A stretch of 55,251 bases of DNA, taken from positions 1 through 55,251 of the IMG/VR virus record IMGVR_UViG_3300030090_005805. The stretch is one strand, 5' to 3'. The stretch is from a virus. Made by a program: the position numbers and the translations under genes. The notes below the pieces were generated by a model, which was not told the DNA's origin, did not search any database, and worked only from the letters and a program-made list of their open reading frames with translations. Positions 4,627 to 44,300 of the stretch are shown here, piece after piece. Position 1 is the stretch's first letter, and each line of letters opens with the position of its first letter.

Positions 4627-4797
4627 ATGTCAGTAGAAGATTTTTGGTGGGATACCCACAACGAATTAAAAGAACTTGGTTTGCAAAAAAAATTTGATAA
4701 ACAAGTTAAAAAAATGAAATCCCAAGAAAAACATCAGTATAAAGATGCAAAACAGATATGGGAATATGCTTTAGATAAAGTTAAAAATGGTCGCTAG
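4627..4797 (+). CDS. Hypothetical protein, 56 aa
   Basis: The start at MSVEDFWW (4627) is preferred to an upstream ATG at 4594 that would overlap the previous gene. The product is small, charged and helical, with Trp-rich N-terminal residues. Its stop codon lies 3 bases before the first paired base of the tmRNA acceptor piece, so the gene and the RNA may be processed from one transcript. Confidence 0.55.
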   Translation: MSVEDFWWDTHNELKELGLQKKFDKQVKKMKSQEKHQYKDAKQIWEYALDKVKNGR

Positions 4798-4848
4798 TAC
4801 TTATATTAGCTGCTTGTTTGGACCCGGGTTCGATTCCCGGCATCTCCA
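4798..4848 (+). ncRNA. tmRNA acceptor piece
   Basis: This upstream piece carries the 3' half of the P2 helix, the bases GGAC before the T stem as in ordinary tmRNA, the T arm with loop TTCGATT, and the 3' acceptor strand ending in discriminator A at 4848. It cannot be a whole tRNA, because only about 50 bases separate it from the coding sequence and no matching 5' acceptor strand lies upstream. The 17-base spacer 4849-4865 should be removed in maturation. Confidence 0.83.
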
Positions 4849-4865
4849 CTAAGAATACACGATAT

Positions 4866-5087
4866 GGGGATGACTGGATTTGACAGCAAGTAAGGGTATA
4901 AGGAAGACCAACGCAGTAACCGGCAAACAGGTTAACACGGCGATAGCAAGTACATTTGCTTTCTTATCATCTATTCGATCTCTTTCACAAGAGACTGTAG
5001 TTGCTAAAGAGCAAGTATTTGCAATGGCTGCCTAGTTAGGCACCCACGCCACACGGCAAACGAGGATCATGTCGTAAAAATCCTAGA
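4866..5087 (+). ncRNA. tmRNA coding piece with tag AKEQVFAMAA
   Basis: It starts with the tmRNA 5' acceptor strand and D-loop-like sequence. A hairpin (4979-4984 with 4989-4994) stands just before TAGTT (4998-5002), matching the UAGUC that precedes the resume codon in E. coli. The frame GCT (5003) to TAG (5033-5035) encodes AKEQVFAMAA, comparable with ANDENYALAA and ending in a ClpXP-type Ala-Ala. The stop lies in a hairpin (5029-5033 with 5038-5042), like helix P5 of one-piece tmRNA. The 3' end of the mature piece is not defined by the sequence. Confidence 0.83.
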
Positions 5088-5118
5088 AGCAGCCCGAAAG
5101 GGCTGCTTTTTATTTTTC
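5088..5118 (+). terminator. Rho-independent terminator of the tmRNA
   Basis: AGCAGCCC (5088-5095) and GGGCTGCT (5100-5107) form a perfect 8-bp stem with a stable GAAA tetraloop. A T-rich run follows. It closes the tmRNA transcript and marks where the gene really ends. Confidence 0.9.
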
Positions 5119-5123
5119 CTTTC

Positions 5124-5134
5124 TATATTTATTA
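5124..5134 (+). promoter_or_regulatory. Putative late promoter motif
   Basis: TATATTTATTA lies 26 bases before the start codon at 5150, right after the tmRNA terminator, so this cassette needs its own promoter. It is one of six similar motifs in the window (consensus ATATTTATWA). Recognition by the gp55-like sigma factor is inference. Confidence 0.45.
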
Positions 5135-6852: not shown

Positions 6853-9800
6853 ATGAAAAAAATATTAAGTTTATTTTTAGTGTTAATGCCTTTATTAGCA
6901 CTTACACAAGACACAATTGTTAACCCTCCACCACCACCACCACCATTAGAAACAGACAGCTTATTATATGATTCTTGGATCACTATAGATGTTCATACAG
7001 ATGACTGGCCAGAAGAAACAACATGGGAATTAGTAGATTCAAATGATGTAGCAATTGCGTCAGGAGGGCCATACAATTCAGAACAAACTTTATACAGTGA
7101 AATAGTTAATTTAAACTCAGGTGAATATTATTATTTTTTATTTGATTCATATGGAGATGGTTTATGGACAGGAGGGTATGTTGAAATATGGAATTCATGT
7201 GATACTGTATTATTCTTTCATGAAGGACCATTTACTGGATATACTCTTGAAGAGGTAATGGAAGATGGTGCAGAATGGCAATCAAATGAATTGATAGAAT
7301 CATTAACAATAGCACCTTGTGCACCCCCAACTGAAGGTTGTACTAATCCCTTAGCTATAAATTATGATGAAACAGCAGGTATTGATGATGGAAGTTGTGA
7401 AATTTTAGAAGGCTGTACAGACCCAATTGCATTAAATTATGATGAAACAGCAGGTATTGATAATAATAGTTGTGAATATATAGAAGGATGTATAAATGAA
7501 AATGCATCTAATTACAATCCTGAAGCAGGAAGCTTACCAACAGGAATTATAACACCAGGTTCAACATGTAATCTGGTTTCTTTTACTAACACTCATTTTG
7601 GAATTGATCCTGCATTTTATTTAGAATGGCAAGATGTTTTACAAGTTGGTACAAGAATATATGTTGGTAATAATGGTCAACAATGGTTTATAGATGCAAT
7701 AGCTTTTGATGGTGGGGGTTGTAATTCACCAACAACTTTAATTTATGTTGTATCAACAGCAGCAGAAGCAGATGGAAACCCAAATACAAATGCACCTGGA
7801 GGTGTAAATGTAGCTGCTGTAGTAGGTGAAATATGGCAGGTAGATCCTTGTATTTTTATCTATGGTTGTACAAATCCAACAGCATTAAATTATAATCCTG
7901 AAGCAGGTATTGATGATGGTTCATGTATTAATATACCTGGTTGTACAGATCCAACAGCAGCTAGTTATAACCCAGCAGCAACTCAAGATGATGGTTCTTG
8001 TAATGGAGGTGAAGTAATTTGTACAGAAAATAAAACATTAGTTACTGTTGAAATAATGGTTGATCAATATGGTTGTGAAACTAGTTGGGTAATATATGAT
8101 CAATATGGTGATGGAACTCCGTTAGCTGAAGTAAATGATCTTTATTGTGGTGTACCTGTAGGTACTACAATAGAATATCAAACTTGTATTAATGATAATA
8201 CAAATATTATGTTTTGGCTTCAAGATTCATATGGTGATGGATTAGGAGGAGCCCAATGGGGTGGTATAGATGGTACTTGGGTAGTCTATACAGAATGTGG
8301 TGATACAATATCAGAAGGTATAGGTGATTTTGGTGAACTTATAATTGATGTAGGTCAAGTAATACCTTGTGCCCCTGAAGCTATTGAAGGTTGTACAGAT
8401 GATAATTATCTAGAATTTAATCCTTATGCAAACACAGATGATGGTTCATGTATAACAGAAAGAATATTTGGTTGTATTAACCCGGATGCTTTTAATTATG
8501 ATGAAGATGCAAATACTCAATTAGTAAACCCTCAATGTTTAAATACATTAAGATTAACAGATTGGGCTGATAATGGATGGGCAGGTTCATTTATGGTTGT
8601 TACTCAAGGAGATGATTATTGGGGACCCTTTACATTAGAAAGTGACCAAACAGTATTTGAAACTCAAATTAATTTAAATACTGAAGAAATGGTTAAAGCA
8701 TATTTTTATTCATTTGGTCAATCTCAACAAACAACAGAACAATGTAGTTTTGAAATATTAAATCCTATTGGTGATATAATTTTAGAAGGTGGAACAAACC
8801 CCTATACAAATCCAGTTTTATCTTATAACCAATATGGTTTTTCATATCAAGGACAAGCTTTATGTGGTAACAATTGTGAACCAAAAGTTTATGGCTGTTT
8901 AGATGATATTGCAGTTAATTATGATGAATTAGCAAATACAACAGATGGTTCATGTTATTATAATCCAGGTTGTAATAATGAAGCATATACAGAATATTAT
9001 AATTATCTTAATGTAAATGGTGTAGCAGCAGATTTTAATGATGGTTCATGTGTAGAATTTGCAGTATTTGGTTGTATGGATGATATGATGTTTAATTTTA
9101 ATTATAATGCAACTGTTAATGGTACAGCAATTGGGGACCTTACAGATCCTTGTATACCTTATATATTAGGATGTACTGATCCAACTGCATTTAACTATGA
9201 TGATGCAGCTAATTTTGATTTTGATGGATTAATTTGTGAACCATTTATTTATGGATGTACTGATGAATTAGCATTTAATTATGATTCATCTGCTAATACA
9301 AATAATGATTCTTGTATTGAAGTAATTTATGGTTGTACAGATGATGAAGCATTTAATTATGATATTAATGCAAATGTAGATGACGAAACATGTATACCAG
9401 TAATAGAAGGATGTACACAATCAAATCAATTTAATTATAATGCAGAAGCAAACACAGATGATGGTTCTTGTTATCCTTTTGTATACGGTTGTTTAAACCC
9501 TAACTCATACACTTATAATGATTATGATAATGATGGTGTTGGTAATCCTATAACAGGAATAAATGGTGTAGATGTTAATACAAATAATAATTTATGTGAA
9601 CCTTTTATTTATGGTTGTTTAGATGAAACAGCATTTAACTACAATTCAGAAGCTAACACAGCAGATGAAAATAATCCATGTGAACCATTTATATATGGTT
9701 GTATGGATCCAACTCAATTCAATTATGATGTTAACGTAAATACTGACGATGGTTCTTGTATAGAATTTGCATATGGTTGTACAGACCCAGAAGCATTTAA

Positions 9801-10842
9801 CTATGATGAAACAGCAAATACAAATGTTGGTTGTATATCATTTGTTTATGGTTGTACAAATCCAGACGCCTTTAATTATAACCCACAAGCTAATACAGAA
9901 GATAATAGTTGTGAAGCTGTAGTTATTGGATGTACAGATTCTACAGCAAACAATTATGATGAGAATGCTAATACTAATAATGGTTGTATATATCCAGTAT
10001 ATGGTTGTACTGATGAGGAAGCATTTAATTATAACTCTAATGCTAACACAGATGATGGTTCATGTATACCTTTAATTTATGGGTGTACAGATAATACAAT
10101 GTTTAATTATAATTCAGAAGCAAATACTGAAAATGGTAGTTGTATAGAATTTATATATGGTTGTATGGATTCAACAGCGTTTAATTATGATCCAACAGCT
10201 AACACAGATAATAGTTCATGTATCCCCATAATTGAAGGTTGCACTGATCCAAGTGCATTTAATTATAATGCAGATGCAAATACAGAAGACTTTTCATGTA
10301 TTGAAGTTGTTATAGGTTGTACAGATCCAGATGCAATAAATTATGACCCTTTAGCAAACACAGATTCAGGAGCTTGTATAGATGTATTAACAGGTTGTAC
10401 TGATGTAAATGCATATAATTATAGTTTAACAGCTAATACAGATGACGGTTCATGTGTTTATGATGCAGGATGTAGTGGAGGACCAGGAGAACCATATTGG
10501 TTACCTAATGAATGTTTTGCATGGGTAATATCAGTAGATGATGAATGTTGTAATGGTCAATGGGATTCATATTGTGTAGAATTATATAATTATTGTGATT
10601 TAGGTTGGCCTATTGATTTAATAGAATCTTCTTCTGAATTATTGATTTATCCTAATCCAGTAATTGATATATTAAATATAAATCAAGAAATTGATGTAAA
10701 ATTATATGATATGGTAGGAAATTTAGTAATTTCTAAAGAAAACATAACACAAATAGATATGACTAATTTACCAAGTGGTATTTACAATTTAAATATAAAC
10801 CACAATAATAAAATAATAAATAATAAAATTATAAAACAATAA
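6853..10842 (+). CDS. Giant Cys-rich repeat protein with T9SS sorting tail
   Basis: A 1329-residue secreted protein. It has a signal peptide (about 1-18), a poly-Pro stretch, two DSYGDGL-type modules (about 40-155 and 400-505), and roughly 26 repeats of the form GCTDP..FNYD..ANTDDGSC, densest from about 770 to 1205. A Cys cluster with ECCNGQWDSYC follows. The last 68 residues are a Por-type C-terminal sorting domain (LLIYPNPV then KLYDMVGNLV and LPSGIYNL). Proteins of this build in marine Flavobacteriia are exported by type IX secretion to the cell surface, which identifies the host phylum. Its place in a phage cassette suggests capture from a host and use as a surface adhesin or coat. The paired cysteines suggest disulfide-linked or metal-binding repeats. 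Confidence 0.88.
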   Translation: MKKILSLFLVLMPLLALTQDTIVNPPPPPPPLETDSLLYDSWITIDVHTDDWPEETTWELVDSNDVAIASGGPYNSEQTLYSEIVNLNSGEYYYFLFDSYGDGLWTGGYVEIWNSCDTVLFFHEGPFTGYTLEEVMEDGAEWQSNELIESLTIAPCAPPTEGCTNPLAINYDETAGIDDGSCEILEGCTDPIALNYDETAGIDNNSCEYIEGCINENASNYNPEAGSLPTGIITPGSTCNLVSFTNTHFGIDPAFYLEWQDVLQVGTRIYVGNNGQQWFIDAIAFDGGGCNSPTTLIYVVSTAAEADGNPNTNAPGGVNVAAVVGEIWQVDPCIFIYGCTNPTALNYNPEAGIDDGSCINIPGCTDPTAASYNPAATQDDGSCNGGEVICTENKTLVTVEIMVDQYGCETSWVIYDQYGDGTPLAEVNDLYCGVPVGTTIEYQTCINDNTNIMFWLQDSYGDGLGGAQWGGIDGTWVVYTECGDTISEGIGDFGELIIDVGQVIPCAPEAIEGCTDDNYLEFNPYANTDDGSCITERIFGCINPDAFNYDEDANTQLVNPQCLNTLRLTDWADNGWAGSFMVVTQGDDYWGPFTLESDQTVFETQINLNTEEMVKAYFYSFGQSQQTTEQCSFEILNPIGDIILEGGTNPYTNPVLSYNQYGFSYQGQALCGNNCEPKVYGCLDDIAVNYDELANTTDGSCYYNPGCNNEAYTEYYNYLNVNGVAADFNDGSCVEFAVFGCMDDMMFNFNYNATVNGTAIGDLTDPCIPYILGCTDPTAFNYDDAANFDFDGLICEPFIYGCTDELAFNYDSSANTNNDSCIEVIYGCTDDEAFNYDINANVDDETCIPVIEGCTQSNQFNYNAEANTDDGSCYPFVYGCLNPNSYTYNDYDNDGVGNPITGINGVDVNTNNNLCEPFIYGCLDETAFNYNSEANTADENNPCEPFIYGCMDPTQFNYDVNVNTDDGSCIEFAYGCTDPEAFNYDETANTNVGCISFVYGCTNPDAFNYNPQANTEDNSCEAVVIGCTDSTANNYDENANTNNGCIYPVYGCTDEEAFNYNSNANTDDGSCIPLIYGCTDNTMFNYNSEANTENGSCIEFIYGCMDSTAFNYDPTANTDNSSCIPIIEGCTDPSAFNYNADANTEDFSCIEVVIGCTDPDAINYDPLANTDSGACIDVLTGCTDVNAYNYSLTANTDDGSCVYDAGCSGGPGEPYWLPNECFAWVISVDDECCNGQWDSYCVELYNYCDLGWPIDLIESSSELLIYPNPVIDILNINQEIDVKLYDMVGNLVISKENITQIDMTNLPSGIYNLNINHNNKIINNKIIKQ

Positions 10843-14263: not shown

Positions 14264-15049
14264 ATGTTATCAGCAGAAAAAATCCAATCAAATTGGGATC
14301 GTTATATAAATGAAATAAAAACAAATATATCTAAAGAAAGATCGGATATATTATTACCTTTTTTAGAAAAATTTGAAGAACGAATAATGATGATGCCTGC
14401 AGCAGCTAAAAATTGGCACCATTCAGCATTTGCAGGTGGTTATGTTGATCATGTATTACGTGTATATGATTGCGCAAATGAATTATATAAAACGTGGAGT
14501 AAAATGGGAGGAGATATATCTACATATACAATTGAAGAAATGCATTTCGTTGCTTTATTCCATGATTTAGGTAAAATGGGCCAACAAGAAGGTGAATACT
14601 ATCAACCAAACGATTCACAATGGCATATTGATAAATTAGGTCAAATATATAAATTTAATACTGATATCCCTGCAATGAAAATACCAGAACGATCTTTATT
14701 TTTATTACAACAAATAGGATGTAAAGTATCTCAAAATGAATATATTGGTATCAAAATACATGATGGTTTATATGATGAAAGTAATAAATTTTATTTTATG
14801 TCTAGTATGAAAGAGACTAAATTAAGATCACATTTACCTTTACTTATGCATCAAGCAGACCATATGGCAGCTCAAATTGAATTTGAAATATGGAATAATG
14901 CAACAGATGCTGTTCCTAAACAATCTAAACCTAAAAATGGTTCTAAGGGAGATAAAACAATAAGAAATGCTAAAAAAATAAATACTAAAAATAATCCGAA
15001 TCTATCTAACGCTACTTTAGATGTTATAGATTCTTTTTTTAAAGATTAA
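14264..15049 (+). CDS. HD-domain phosphohydrolase
   Basis: A 261-residue protein with the HD-superfamily signature: GGYVDHVLRV (His63), ALFHDLGK (His100-Asp101) and a later HQADHMA (about 195-201) that can give the last metal ligand. The family hydrolyses phosphate esters, such as nucleotides or RNA ends. The GGYVDHVLRV...HDLGK arrangement resembles the catalytic half of YhaM-type 3'-5' exoribonucleases, but substrate cannot be read from sequence. The C-terminal 40 residues are basic and disordered-looking. Confidence 0.82.
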   Translation: MLSAEKIQSNWDRYINEIKTNISKERSDILLPFLEKFEERIMMMPAAAKNWHHSAFAGGYVDHVLRVYDCANELYKTWSKMGGDISTYTIEEMHFVALFHDLGKMGQQEGEYYQPNDSQWHIDKLGQIYKFNTDIPAMKIPERSLFLLQQIGCKVSQNEYIGIKIHDGLYDESNKFYFMSSMKETKLRSHLPLLMHQADHMAAQIEFEIWNNATDAVPKQSKPKNGSKGDKTIRNAKKINTKNNPNLSNATLDVIDSFFKD

Positions 15050-25964: not shown

Positions 25965-28900
25965 ATGGCAGAAGAATATTTTATATTAGATTCAGAATCA
26001 ACTTCTTCAGTTGACCCTACTATTAACCCCCCTGTATCTGTAGATACTCTAAGAATAGGTTCAAATTCTCAAGAACTAAATAAAACTTTTGGTAGAAAAG
26101 AAGATTATATAGATGTACACATTTATGATACAGAAGGTAATCTAGAACTTACAGTTAATGATTGTAAAGATTATTCTATAATAGGAGAAGCTCCATCTAA
26201 TACTATAGATATTGATGGAAAAGTTATTTTAAATAATGCTGGATATACTTCTGGAAAATTTAGATTAAAAGTAAATATTTTTAAAAATAAAATATTTGAT
26301 ACTCTTTCTGATCAATATCCATTTTTAGTAAAAGAAATATCTGACAATAGATTAGAAATAAGATCTGTTACTCCTTCAATCAGTAATGAACTTTTTGATT
26401 CTGCTGTTAGTAGTTTTATTTCCGAAATAGAATCTTCAGCATATTTTAAAGAATTCTCCCTTGATTTTGGCGATGATACAATAATACCTGCTGTTAATGT
26501 ATTATTAAATAAAAATCCTATTAAACATGAATTGCTAATAAAAACACTTGAACCTCTTTCCCGTGATTTTCATACGGGCAGAAATTTTAAAGTTGTAGAA
26601 GAAATAGTAGATTCATTTTTTATAAATGTAGACTTAGGAGAAATAACATTTACAGATCCTACTGTTGGTATAAGACCTCCTAATTTTAATATTGATGTTA
26701 AAAGATATGCATCAATGCCTTCAAGTTTAAAATCATATGATGATATATTAAATTACAAAGTAACTTCTTCTTATGAACATTTATTAAGTAAATTAGAAGA
26801 TGATGGTATAGATTTAAATATACAATATGATTATATAAGACCTACAACAGGAAGTAGTGATGAACCTGTATATCATTTTGAAAATTTTACTCATTTTAGT
26901 AGTGCTACAGAACGTTTAAAAAATTTTCAACATAAAATAAAATTAATTGAAAAATATGATTCTGAAATAAACACTATAAATAATATTGAAGGGTCTACAT
27001 CTGGAGCTGCTGTTGTTGTAACAGACAAAAGTCATATATACAGAAAAAAAGAAAAACTAATAAAAGGGTTTGATGGTTATGAACAATTTTTATATTTTAC
27101 TTCAGGAACTTTTGCTTGGCCTAAAACTAACACACATGAACCTTATGAATTATATGCAGTAACTTCTTCTGAAGCTAAAGTTTGGTTAGGTAGTGAGGAT
27201 AGTATTAAAGAAGGTTCTTTATATGGAGGTCAATTATTATCTGCTTCTTTATATGATAAAATAAACCATCATAATTTAAATAGATTAATACCAGAACATA
27301 TTATAGAAAATGAAGATAATGATTTTTATATTAGTTTTATAAATATGGTAGGTCAACATTTTGACCATATATGGACTTATATAAAGTCAATGACAGAAAT
27401 CCATAATACAGACAATATTAATGGTATTTCAAAAGATTTAGTTTATCTCCAGTTAGGAAGTTTAGGAATAGAATCTTTTGATCAATTTGAAAATGCTGAT
27501 CTAATAGAATATATTTTAGGTCAAAGTACTAGTCCTGCAAATACAGTTGGAGAATTAGTAATAGGAGAATATGTTATAGGAGGAAATTCTTTAAATTATT
27601 ATAATACTCCTATTAATCAAACTTTAGTTACTGCTTCAAATGAAGGGTCTATACCTAAATCAGATATTCCTAAAGAAATTATGAAGCGTTTATACCACAA
27701 TGCTCCTTATTTATTAAAAAATAAAGGAACAAAAAGAGGTTTAAAAGCATTAATGAGTTGTTATGGTTTTCCTACAAGTATATTAAGTATAAAAGAATAT
27801 GGAGGGTCTACTCAAGTAGTAGGACCTTTAAAAGATTTAAAAACAGCAGATTTTTATAAAACTTTTACATATAAAAAATCTTCATTAACATTACATGGAG
27901 TTTCTTCTGATGATGAGTTTTTTATAAAAACAAGATGGGGTTCTCAGTACACTTTACCATTATCTTCATCTGCAAAAACCATTGAATTTAGAATTAAACC
28001 ACTTAGAAAAGGAGAAATACAAGATGAAAAACAACATTTATTTAGTTTATCAGGTAGTGCTATTAATTCTGTAGCTCCTCATTTAGTTTTAAATCCTTAT
28101 GGAGAAAATGATATATATGAAGAAGGAGACATGTCTCAATTTGGTAAATTAGAACTTATCATTAATAACACAGTAGTAGCATCTACAGACAACTTTAAAG
28201 TATTTAATGGTGATTTTTGGAATATTTTTATAGGAACCCCTGGTACTTCAGGTAGTGCTGACGATATAAAATTTGGTGCTTATCAAGCTAACTTTTTAAA
28301 AAATATTTTACATTATACTGCTAGTTTTTCTATACCTGAAGTTCAGAGAAGTTTAACTTTTGGAGATCCCTATTATAACGGAACTAACACTAGCGGAGCA
28401 ACTAATGTTTTTTTTGGAGGTATGCCCCTTAATTCAGATCCTGCCCTTAATAGTGTAGATACACTTGGGTATTCAGGTTCACTTCAAGAAATAAAATATT
28501 ATTTTCATAAAAGTGGTTCTTTTGAAATGTTATCTCATAGTACATTAAAAAAACATGCGTTAGAACCTTTTATGTATAGTGGTAATCATATTACTTCTTC
28601 TTTTAATGAAGTAATATTAAGATTACCTTTAGGTAGTAATGATCAAAGAAATAGTTCTAGTTTTCATCCCGACATAGATACACCTTATTTAGATCCAGGA
28701 GATGGTTCTGATATTGAAAGTAATTTTTCAAATCAATCGTGGATAGAAACAATAGAAAATCATTATTTACCTACTCCTGATACTATTGGTAGATCATGGA
28801 CAAGTGAAAAAGTAAGATTAGATGAAGGAACAATAGATGAAAACATATTATCTCTAACAGTTAAAAATGAAACGTCTACATTAGATAGACAACCTCTTGA

Positions 28901-41362: not shown

Positions 41363-44300
41363 ATGAAAAAAACAATTTTACGTAGAATTAGACAAAAAGC
41401 ACATAAGTTACTAAAAGAACAAAAAATATTTGATCAAGAATATTTTAGTAATATATTAAAACCACCAACAAGTCCTTTTGACTTAGTATCAAAAATACCA
41501 AAACCTGATAAAGATCAACCATATCCTTTTGGAAATGGAATAGCAGTCCAATGTAAAAATCAACAACCTGCCTTTGAATTATTTTATGTAGTTTGTCAAG
41601 ATGGTGGAGATCTTGGACCTCAATGTGAATGTGAACAATATGAAGTAACTGCTGATTGGATTTGTTGTGATGGTGTTGACAGTTTTACAAATCCTGGATT
41701 TGTCCCTTATCCAGGTCAATCATATGCAGGTGATGATAGTCTTTATTGTATGGCAGCACCTGGTACTCCAAATACTTTTGAAAATTATAAAGAAGCTCTT
41801 TTACAAAATGCTTGGATAATAAATATTAATTTTAGTAATTGGATAGCAGATGGTTTGCTTAATTTTCAAAGTGGACCTGGAGACATACCTGTTGTAGGAA
41901 CAGGTTATTTATCTGAAGAATGTCCTGGATGTATGATAACACAACCTGCACCTCTTTCAGGTAATAATTTAGACATAGCAAATCAACAAAATATGCCTGA
42001 TAATTTATCAATGGTACATGATGGTTCATGTGTGTTTGAATGGTGTAATACTCCAGAAGCAGACAATTATTTTTGTAATTCTGAATTAGCCTCAGAAGAT
42101 ATAGCAGGAATAAATATTAGTTTTAGTGATTGGTGTGTTCCTAATGAAGATGGAATTTTAGTTCTTGATACTGCTATAGGAATTGTACAAGAAGGAGAAC
42201 TAACTGAATGTTATGTTGGTGGTTGTACAGATAATGGAACCTTAACTGCTGAAGTTTGGGCTGCAGAATATGCAGGAACAACTCAAACATTAGGAGATGG
42301 TACTGGTGTATTACCAGATGAATATCCAGGAATGCCTGGAGCTGATAACTATGATCCTTTAGCTACTGTAGATGATGGTTCATGTATATATGATGGAGAT
42401 GAAGATGGAGTTTTCTCATTTGATGAAGTAGATGGCTGTACAGATCCTTCAGCTTTTAATTATAATGAAAATGCATCTGAAGATGATGGTACATGTGTAC
42501 CTATAATTTATGGTTGTACAGATTCATTAGCTTTTAACTTTGATGAAGAAGCTAATACTTTATGTGAAGATCCTCCAAATCAAATTAATATAGACCTAAA
42601 TGGTAATGAAGAAGAATGTATAGAATGTATAGAAAATTTAGGTGGTTGTACAGATAATAGTGCAACTAACTATAACCCTGATGCTACTTTTGATGATGAT
42701 TCATGTTGTTATAATCCAGGTTGTACAGATGTAAATGCTTGTAATTATAGTGAAGCTGCTTGTTTTGATGATGGTTCTTGTGAATATGAATCATGTTTAG
42801 GTTGTACAATAATTGGATTTAATGGTGATGCTTCAGGTATAGGTGCTTATAGTGCTGCTAACAGTACAACATTAAGTGTACCTACTATAGATTATTGTGT
42901 TTATAGTGGTTGTTTAAATAGTGAACAAAATGAAGATGGGTCATATGTTTATGAAAATTATGTTTGTAATGGAGATTATGCTCAATTTTTGTGTACATCT
43001 ATTGATATTGATGGTGATGGAGCTCCAGATTTAGGGGTCCCAATGAGTCAAGAAAGTATAGATCAATATGGTCTTAGTATGGAACCTATAGGTATTTTTG
43101 TTGATAAAGGAACTTGTCAATTAGCTCCTGTATTAGGATGTACAAATCCTGATGCTGAAAATTTTAATCCTGATGCAACTGAAGATGATGGTTCATGTGA
43201 ATTTATTCTAGGATGTATGGAAAATACAACAGCTGATTGGAGTTTAGAACCTAATGGATTTATAGTAACTAACTACCAACCAGATGCAACTCAAAATTTT
43301 GGCTGTAATTACGTTGTTTGTTTAGATGGAAATGCTGACAACTATGTATGTGATGCAGAAGATGGTGTACCATATCTATGTTTACAAAATACAGGAGACC
43401 CTAATCAAGATTTAGATGATGACTTTATAGATAGTATAGGTGCTACTATTGAAGATTGTAATTATAATGATCAAAATATATTTGATGCTTCAGGTACAAA
43501 TACTTGTTGTTTTAACATTATTCCAGGATGTATGCAAGGAGGAAATACTATTACTAACCCAGGAAATCTTACAGCTGACAATTATGATCCAAATGCTAAC
43601 GTAGAATGTGTTGATCCTCCAAACCAAGAAGATAATGACACAGGCCTTCCTTGTGAACCTTGTATATTTTCAGGATGCCCAGATCCAACAGCATGTAATA
43701 GTATAGTAGGTAATAATATGTTTGGTCTGTTAGGTTATGAAGCATGGGTATATAATGATGATGGTTCATGTGAATATCCTGACACTTGTAATGATTGTGA
43801 TGGAAATTACTTAACTGATGGATGTACTGATGAAGCAGCATGTAACTATGATCCAACAGCAGAATGTGGACCTAATGATCAACTTTGTGATTATGGTTGC
43901 TATGGTTGTACAGATGAAGCTGCTGCTAATTATGATCAACTAGCTACTATGGATGATGGTAGTTGTGAGTATGATGAAATGTGTTGGGATATAACAATAA
44001 CACAATGTAATGCAGCTTATTTATCATTTGCTTATCAAATTGCTGAACTAGAAGGAACTAGAGCTCCTGGTGGTCCTGATATGTGGACAAATGTAACACT
44101 TAGATGTGTGTCTATAGGATACCCATCAGCTGCAACTGAAATTGGACCTAATGCTCCTGATGGAGAATTTGGAGGTAACCCACCTTTTGTAGATGGAACA
44201 AGCCCTAATGGTTTAGGAGAATATGTTGTTTATGAAGGTTTTACAGCACAAATGGAAGGAGGACCTGGAGATGATTTAGGAATACCTTACGTACCAGCAG

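Follow-up and report, generated by a model that had tools for sequence, protein, structure and literature searches.

How does a phage come to carry a tmRNA gene whose 3' part is encoded ahead of its 5' part, when its hosts would normally make a one-piece tmRNA? The question is raised by the window, the whole 55,251-base linear virus record analysed here, in which such a gene lies at 4785-5110 (+) between two ORFs. Several bacterial lineages are believed to have acquired permuted two-piece tmRNA independently, for a reason left open in the available text of PMC3978253, which cites Sharkady and Williams (2004). We read the locus, with a probability of about 0.8, as a phage-encoded circularly permuted tmRNA gene whose two pieces would rescue stalled ribosomes and which most likely arose when a Bacteroidia-type one-piece tmRNA was permuted, independently of the alpha-, beta- and cyanobacterial lineages.

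Order of the two pieces and related loci

The acceptor (3') piece, containing the P2 3' strands, the T arm and the acceptor 3' strand to A73, occupies 4785-4848 (its 5' end is putative). It is followed by a 17-nt intervening sequence (4849-4865), presumably cut out by tRNA-processing enzymes, and then by the coding (5') piece at 4866-5110, with G1 at 4866 as placed by the RF04321 match and the comparison of loci. The 3' end of the coding piece was set at a rho-independent-terminator-like hairpin and T run (5085-5110), the one site found by a terminator scan of the region, as against 0.6 expected in shuffles; a similar hairpin and T run is present in 8 of 32 post-tag rows (window included). A promoter scan of the region found 1 site against 3.0 expected, and TATATTTAT occurs 13 times against 8.25 expected, with 10 of 100 shuffles reaching 13. 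CCA is not encoded in the window, as A73 at the end of the acceptor 3' strand (4841-4848) is followed by CTA; 10 of the 47 loci described below do encode it. PHROGs and Pfam gave names for few window proteins only, and a Pfam scan of 26 window ORFs (the window has 59 ORFs of at least 80 aa) found no SmpB.

ARAGORN called a permuted gene (tmRNA*) at 4757-5126 with the tag AKEQVFAMAA. A cmscan of the full window against 4227 families returned RF04321 (tmRNA_permuted) at 4789-5035 with 78.9 bits (E 1.6e-13), the only match above its gathering cut-off, which for this family is 47 bits; a related locus, L005, also lies above it at 71.2 bits. The T arm and a D region without a stem are present, as the RF04321 type requires, and the predicted fold of the gene has z = -4.97. 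A chance match is ruled out by the RF04321 score together with covariation across relatives, and the permuted two-piece-type gene in the window is confirmed as real. The sequence-only reading had placed the 3' part before the 5' part and had suggested an Infernal search with one-piece and two-piece models and a search for related phage genomes. The order is borne out by the ARAGORN call and the RF04321 score; it was the two-piece model that scored above its cut-off, and 47 viral loci, window included, share the architecture.

These loci were collected with sequence patterns. An exact T-arm plus acceptor-strand pattern retrieved 66 viral stretches, a mixture of one-piece genes, beta-like permuted genes and near kin of the window, and a second pattern, for the acceptor piece, retrieved 47 stretches. 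An earlier locus pattern had caught 12 loci only and was replaced; the later one itself requires TTGAC, so that its catch is no evidence for the TTGAC signature discussed below. The coding piece is also present in 47 of 48 acceptor-anchored loci (window included), 34 of the 47 being distinct by sequence. The spacer measures 17-23 nt in 42 of the 47 loci and 69, 70, 70, 89 and 91 nt in the other five. In L046 (4786-4860, -) and L058 (4462-4536, +) a complete tRNA-Ala(tgc) gene lies in the spacer between the tmRNA pieces; a tRNA-Ala in a permuted tmRNA spacer has been described for one nominally archaeal MAG (GCA-2688965) in the accessible part of PMC11915505, and L046 and L058 suggest that the MAG's gene may belong to this phage clade. 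Other permuted phage tmRNAs were met along the way: L003, L015, L023, L026, L039 and L057 (the L003 group) have a 29-aa tag ending LAV, and Xanthomonas phage XacN1 (AP018399.1, 37231-37293) gave a full-length match of 84.6% to the permuted acceptor-piece consensus.

The exception among the 48 loci is L018, in which the acceptor 5' strand and the D region of the coding piece are missing. Its contig (also L068) is 95% identical to the window in the 592-aa protein; from 2372 the acceptor strand and D region are gone and the 37-aa tag frame is still open, by deletion or assembly error. Such a near relative is what one would point to if the window's gene were a decaying relic or an assembly artefact with no function, a reading made very improbable by the architecture and compensatory changes kept in 47 of the 48 acceptor-anchored loci.

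The 261-aa protein at 14264 has homologues in 50 records that were screened for the tmRNA gene (mostly short contigs, and part of 80 records kept from at least 591 relatives); the match was strong in 1 (126.5 bits) and weak in 3 (28-34 bits). One relative, G1081, is 100% identical to the window in w10891, w12264, w12718 and w14264 (149-413 aa aligned); its 73.5-kb record contains no tmRNA match, and tblastn of a 20-kb portion found no homologue of proteins w712 to w5150. The tmRNA gene is accessory and not fixed in this phage type. Across 50,697 phage records no match to the window's gene was found at 1e-5, and in the phage collection matches to the L005 gene cover at most 16% of it in the 40 listed of 51 records; neither search brought up an isolate of this clade.

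Pairing, pseudoknot and tag

The acceptor stem consists of 7 bp between GGGGATG (4866-4872) and CATCTCC, with G3-U70, and all acceptor cells pair in the 28 distinct sequences compared (window included). Over the 31 proposed pairs, 94.9% of cells in these sequences are standard-paired, as against 41.0-51.6% in a control in which partners were slid by 1-3 columns. Double changes were counted in 74 cells and 11 of the 31 pairs, and none of 500 shuffles was as high. The T stem-loop (4824-4840, from the RF04321 alignment) is 100% paired. In the P2 helix that joins the two pieces, whose 5' strands lie within 4885-4910, double changes affect 9 of 19 pairs: 4 of 5 in the outer helix (4788-4792 with 4906-4910; 91.4% paired), 2 of 8 in the middle helix (4800-4807 with 4895-4902; 97.8%) and 3 of 6 in the inner helix (4813-4818 with 4885-4890; 83.9%). 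The outer helix is the clearest, reading GGTC/GACC in the window, GACC/GGTC in L005 and GAATC/GATTC in L002. The split P2 helix is real, and with it the 7-bp G3-U70 acceptor stem and the T arm, which had been proposed from the window's letters, are upheld by pairing and covariation.

Downstream of the tag, an H-type pseudoknot is formed at 5053-5084 by 5053-5057 with 5071-5075 and 5063-5067 with 5080-5084. In 32 sequences, one of them (L046) kept in with a mis-set stem-A anchor, stem B is 95% paired against 74% when shuffled, the observed value being reached by 0 of 2000 shuffles; both stems together are 88.1% paired by the tool's count, which includes a one-column misregister. Known two-piece coding pieces typically, though not by definition, have both PK1 and PK2, as the available part of PMC3985003 describes. 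In the window the resume codon follows P2 after only 12 nt, which leaves PK1 no room in the coding piece, and the single pseudoknot is the one after the tag. A coding piece of this form, lacking PK1 and with one post-tag pseudoknot, looks new.

In all 47 loci the coding piece has, 54-61 nt from its start, a resume codon for Gly within AA[TC]NRGC, and the tag is complete in 45 of them, two reaching the contig end. In 35 loci a 10-aa tag such as GEQVEMAMAA is read from this shared codon. A longer tag is found in 12 loci, window included: six have 37 aa, four have 36 aa and share one tag sequence, and two are cut by the contig end (L048, L054). In the window the codon common to the clade is the GGC at 4922; ARAGORN and the sequence-only reading both began the tag at a GCT lying 81 nt further downstream. 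The frame opened by the GGC comprises 37 codons and TAG (4922-5035), giving GKQVNTAIASTFAFLSSIRSLSQETVVAKEQVFAMAA. AKEQVFAMAA (5003-5035) corresponds to the last ten residues of this frame; the residues proposed at first thus stand, but the start assigned to them is probably wrong.

We consider it rather likely, from resume-codon conservation and the open frame, that the window's tag is the 37-aa form read from GGC at 4922. All 9 distinct sequences, a count that takes in L018 and the partial L054, keep the long frame free of stops, and the two alternative frames contain 2-4 stops with one exception. Composition by itself would leave the frame open with a chance of 0.10-0.17 in any one sequence, and the nine are related. 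At the amino-acid level the long frame is under weak selection, with pooled pN 0.21 and pS 0.28 (pN/pS 0.75). That low constraint is consistent with a different arrangement, in which the resume codon has been relocated, the 81-nt insert of the window's subgroup forming a structural hairpin ahead of it, and only the ten residues AKEQVFAMAA make up the tag. The tag extension does fold into a covarying hairpin (4970-5001; 94.8% paired, double changes in 7 of 11 pairs, 7 sequences), which leaves room for a resume codon relocated downstream of a structural insert, and ten residues is the commonest tag length in the part of PMC11915505 available. We regard the relocated codon as the less probable arrangement: the long-tag loci retain the ancestral resume codon and its context, the long frame is open and in phase in all 9 distinct sequences with a length that differs by one codon (36 or 37 aa), and the window's GCT codon stands at another position in L007, L046, L051, L058 and L009. 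A long tag in this clade, like the shortened coding piece, looks new.

Origin of the permuted gene

The D region of the window contains TTTGAC (4879-4884), a signature of Bacteroidia type. TTGAC is present in the D region of 41 of 41 members of the window's clade when the clade is defined by the acceptor piece alone, in 24 of 27 one-piece genes of the class Bacteroidia, in 1 of 52 other permuted viral genes (L012) and in 1 of 47 one-piece viral genes (L064). A Gly-first tag is found in 47 of 47 clade members, 25 of 28 class Bacteroidia genes and 4 of 52 other permuted viral genes, and the two features occur together in 22 of 28 Bacteroidia genes, 1 of 52 other permuted viral genes and 0 of 47 one-piece viral genes. 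The pattern YAGCTRCNNNNNTGGACNCGGGTTCGANTCCCG, taken from the phage clade, retrieved 5 stretches from an 84,980-species collection, all 5 from Bacteroidota and all 5 one-piece genes. Two one-piece genes from the phylum sample, L168 and L171, for which no P2 pattern was used, have TTAGTTGCTTGTTT where the window has TTAGCTGCTTGTTT. The one-piece gene of Flavobacterium foetidum (L073, pattern-fetched) shares with the window the D/P2 strand TTTGACAGCAAG, the 3' strand TTAGCTGCTTGTTTGGACC and a Gly-first tag; it differs in being continuous, in normal order and 395 nt long. Likewise, the one-piece gene of Cellulophaga phage phi38:1 (L324), a phage whose host is known, shares TTTTGAC and differs in being continuous, in normal order and 360 nt long. 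The phi38:1 gene lies at 26805-27164 (-) of L324, where the annotation of the stretch shown has no tmRNA feature, and its tag has about 30 aa if read from TTTAAAC-GGA as against 22 by ARAGORN. By these comparisons, both halves of the window's gene resemble Bacteroidia one-piece tmRNA.

Distances and tree tests were computed on sampled loci; one set of 92 stretches gave 80 loci, 10 of the 80 being without an ARAGORN call and L310 not anchorable. The class sample comprised the 30 best-scoring of 60 genomes (2 of the 30 loci without an ARAGORN call), and the permuted comparison set comprised phage genes and one Pandoraea plasmid, with no cellular alpha or cyanobacterial permuted tmRNAs. Rows L070-L074 and L165/L200 (F. 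foetidum itself) and the mis-anchored L095, L012 and L197 were dropped beforehand; L064 was further dropped in the 31-column test, and L169 and L173 from the non-class group, which supplied 18, 18 and 15 random rows of Bacteroidota in the three tests. At the 31 columns unaffected by ascertainment, the window differs at a median of 9 from class Bacteroidia and 18 from other permuted genes, and the plain distance medians for the clade are 8 to class Bacteroidia, 12 to other permuted and 14 to one-piece viral genes, so that the groups separate. Over 67 columns the median minimum distances of the clade are 15.5, 16.5 and 14.0, respectively, and give no separation.

The first AU test, in which the group was defined by TTTGAC and the pattern-fetched genomes were left out, used a less clean grouping and gave 0.037 for a single permuted clade and 0.048 for the Bacteroidia grouping; it was replaced because the latter grouping also got p 0.048. 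The second test used all 67 columns and included the class sample; it rejected neither a single permuted clade (0.178) nor the clade plus class Bacteroidia (0.352). The third test left out the T-arm and acceptor columns, since these were fixed by the search pattern, and used only those clade members that the T arm had fetched (25 loci, 13 distinct rows). On these 31 unascertained columns, which are few and in which the P2 strands are not independent of each other, the single permuted clade was rejected (p-AU 0.0167) and the clade plus class Bacteroidia was not (0.267).

Covariance models were also compared. No tmRNA-clan family, including alpha RF01849, beta RF01850 and cyano RF01851, reaches its gathering score in the window, the best being RF01850 at 50.5 against a cut-off of 84. 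The best clan member in L005 is the one-piece RF00023, at 40.4 against 47 and cut off at the 5' end. The beta model was passed by 3 of 3 controls (L003, 117.6; L246, 143; the Pandoraea plasmid gene, 131.6). This last gene is a permuted beta-type tmRNA with the tag GKNDAFYYEAA on a Pandoraea conjugative plasmid (L163, NZ_CP011518.2); no feature is annotated at its position, in a gene table that is without RNA genes. R1, a covariance model of the clade, gave 103 and 126 bits for clade members outside the model (L080 and L415), 18-61 bits for other permuted genes and 18-28 bits for Bacteroidia one-piece genes, with up to 39.6 in an order-wide search. As R1 scores other permuted genes at least as high as Bacteroidia one-piece genes, it does not favour the claim of an independent origin. 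In 395 genomes of F. foetidum's order it found 79 weak matches (best 39.6 bits), and 9 of 10 loci returned from that search had a one-piece tmRNA.

Descent from the beta-like permuted phage genes was considered separately and rejected: the L003 group, which shares the T-arm pattern, is beta-like (117.6 bits) and has another D region and P2. More generally, the permuted tmRNA could have come from Alphaproteobacteria, Betaproteobacteria or Cyanobacteria, or from their phages, with subsequent adaptation of its D region, P2 and resume codon to the SmpB, AlaRS and ribosomes of Bacteroidia. Permuted phage tmRNAs are common among aquatic phages in the accessible text of PMC9004378, the 67-column AU test keeps a single permuted clade at p-AU 0.178, RF04321 detects the window's gene and was made from three known lineages, and R1 places other permuted genes above most one-piece genes. 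We nevertheless think borrowing of this kind unlikely, given p-AU 0.017 on the unascertained columns, lineage models that stay below their cut-offs in the window when beta passes in 3 of 3 controls, and the TTAGTTGCTTGTTT of the one-piece genes L168 and L171 at the position of the window's TTAGCTGCTTGTTT. The clade seems to lie outside the alpha, beta and cyano lineages, and this too looks new. Because of the TTGAC distribution, the tree test and distances on the 31 columns and the lineage-model scores taken together, independent permutation of a Bacteroidia-type one-piece gene is favoured, though not proven, and we hold it to be reasonably likely.

Hosts, proposed function and significance

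That the window comes from a Bacteroidota-type phage had been suggested from its letters, and Bacteroidota hosts are well supported. The 1329-aa ORF at 6853-10842 ends in a C-terminal sorting domain of the type IX secretion system (T9SS; PF18962, 40.3 bits against a cut-off of 27), an SD-like 4-mer stands before 1 of 49 chosen ORFs against a background of 13.5%, and the 20 nt before starts are 56% A as against 39% across the window; the Bacteroidia-type D region agrees with this assignment. A phage protein built for the host T9SS would be unusual. In tblastn searches, parts of the 1329-aa ORF share their hit positions with the ORFs at 41363 and 47983.

Hosts of this kind normally make a one-piece tmRNA, as had been supposed: RF00023 is above its cut-off in 60 of 61 genomes of the phylum Bacteroidota and 55 of 60 of the class Bacteroidia. 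RF04321 was above its cut-off in 1 of 395 phylum genomes and 0 of 395 class genomes, under stricter filters with which weak matches can be lost. In the one genome concerned, G239, the match lies amid rIIA, rIIB, DNA polymerase and helicase genes, a phage region, and the genome also has its own one-piece tmRNA gene. The G239 locus (L095, C1:986035-986308) is a second type of permuted tmRNA with the tag GKVIQMNNAPVRLAA; a similar tag is found in the viral locus L012.

As a kind, permuted phage tmRNA is not new: in the portion of PMC9004378 available, 53 of 133 unique phage tmRNAs are two-piece, and 50 of the 53 come from marine or aquatic samples. The sequence-only reading, which knew of none in Bacteroidota phages, holds in this narrower sense, as no such report was found in a literature with few subscription papers, and the supplementary lists of PMC9004378 and PMC11915505 may hold entries; permuted tmRNA in phages as such, however, has been published (PMC9004378). 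The marine OM43 phage Melnitz likewise encodes a permuted two-piece gene, but the accessible text of PMC9004378 places that tmRNA with Alphaproteobacteria and their phages, whereas the window's clade resembles Bacteroidia one-piece genes. With the alpha, beta and cyano two-piece tmRNAs (RF01849, RF01850, RF01851), which RF04321 merges according to the available part of PMC11915505, the window has in common the acceptor piece first, the spacer, the split P2, a break downstream of the tag and a post-tag pseudoknot. It differs in falling below every lineage cut-off, in lacking PK1 and in its Bacteroidia-like D region and P2.

The order of the pieces, their pairing, the pseudoknot and the open tag frame can be read directly from these loci; from them we infer how processing, charging, SmpB use and tagging would proceed. 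The acceptor piece, the coding piece and the 17-nt spacer between them would be transcribed as a single RNA. Cleavage would be by RNase P at 4865/4866 and by a 3' tRNA nuclease behind 4848, with CCA added afterwards. The two pieces would be held together by the acceptor stem and the three-part P2 helix, and the tmRNA would be used by host AlaRS (through G3-U70), EF-Tu and SmpB, the last assumed to be the host's. It would then rescue stalled ribosomes during infection, adding a phage-specific tag ending AMAA.

Alternatively, the RNA might act as a decoy or inhibitor of the host tmRNA, as does the TLD-only RNA of mycobacteriophage DS6A in the accessible portions of PMC4131195 and PMC11915505, and the accessory status of the gene in these phages would fit such a role. 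A decoy appears improbable in view of the resume site and open tag kept across 47 loci and the pseudoknot kept across 32 distinct post-tag sequences. A working rescue RNA is the reading we retain. In its broadest form, which we put forward tentatively and at somewhat less than even odds, the clade would represent a fourth bacterial-type permutation lineage: Bacteroidota phages would have permuted a Bacteroidia one-piece tmRNA and lost PK1, one subgroup acquiring a 36-37-residue tag around an internal hairpin, and the product would be a phage-specific rescue RNA beside the host's one-piece tmRNA, with another fate for the rescued proteins.

An extra origin in phages whose hosts keep the one-piece gene would, if true, make both forms comparable within one cell. 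It would also mean that phages remodel ribosome rescue, beyond copying a host gene. The small coding piece and long structured tag offer a test of which parts of tmRNA are needed.
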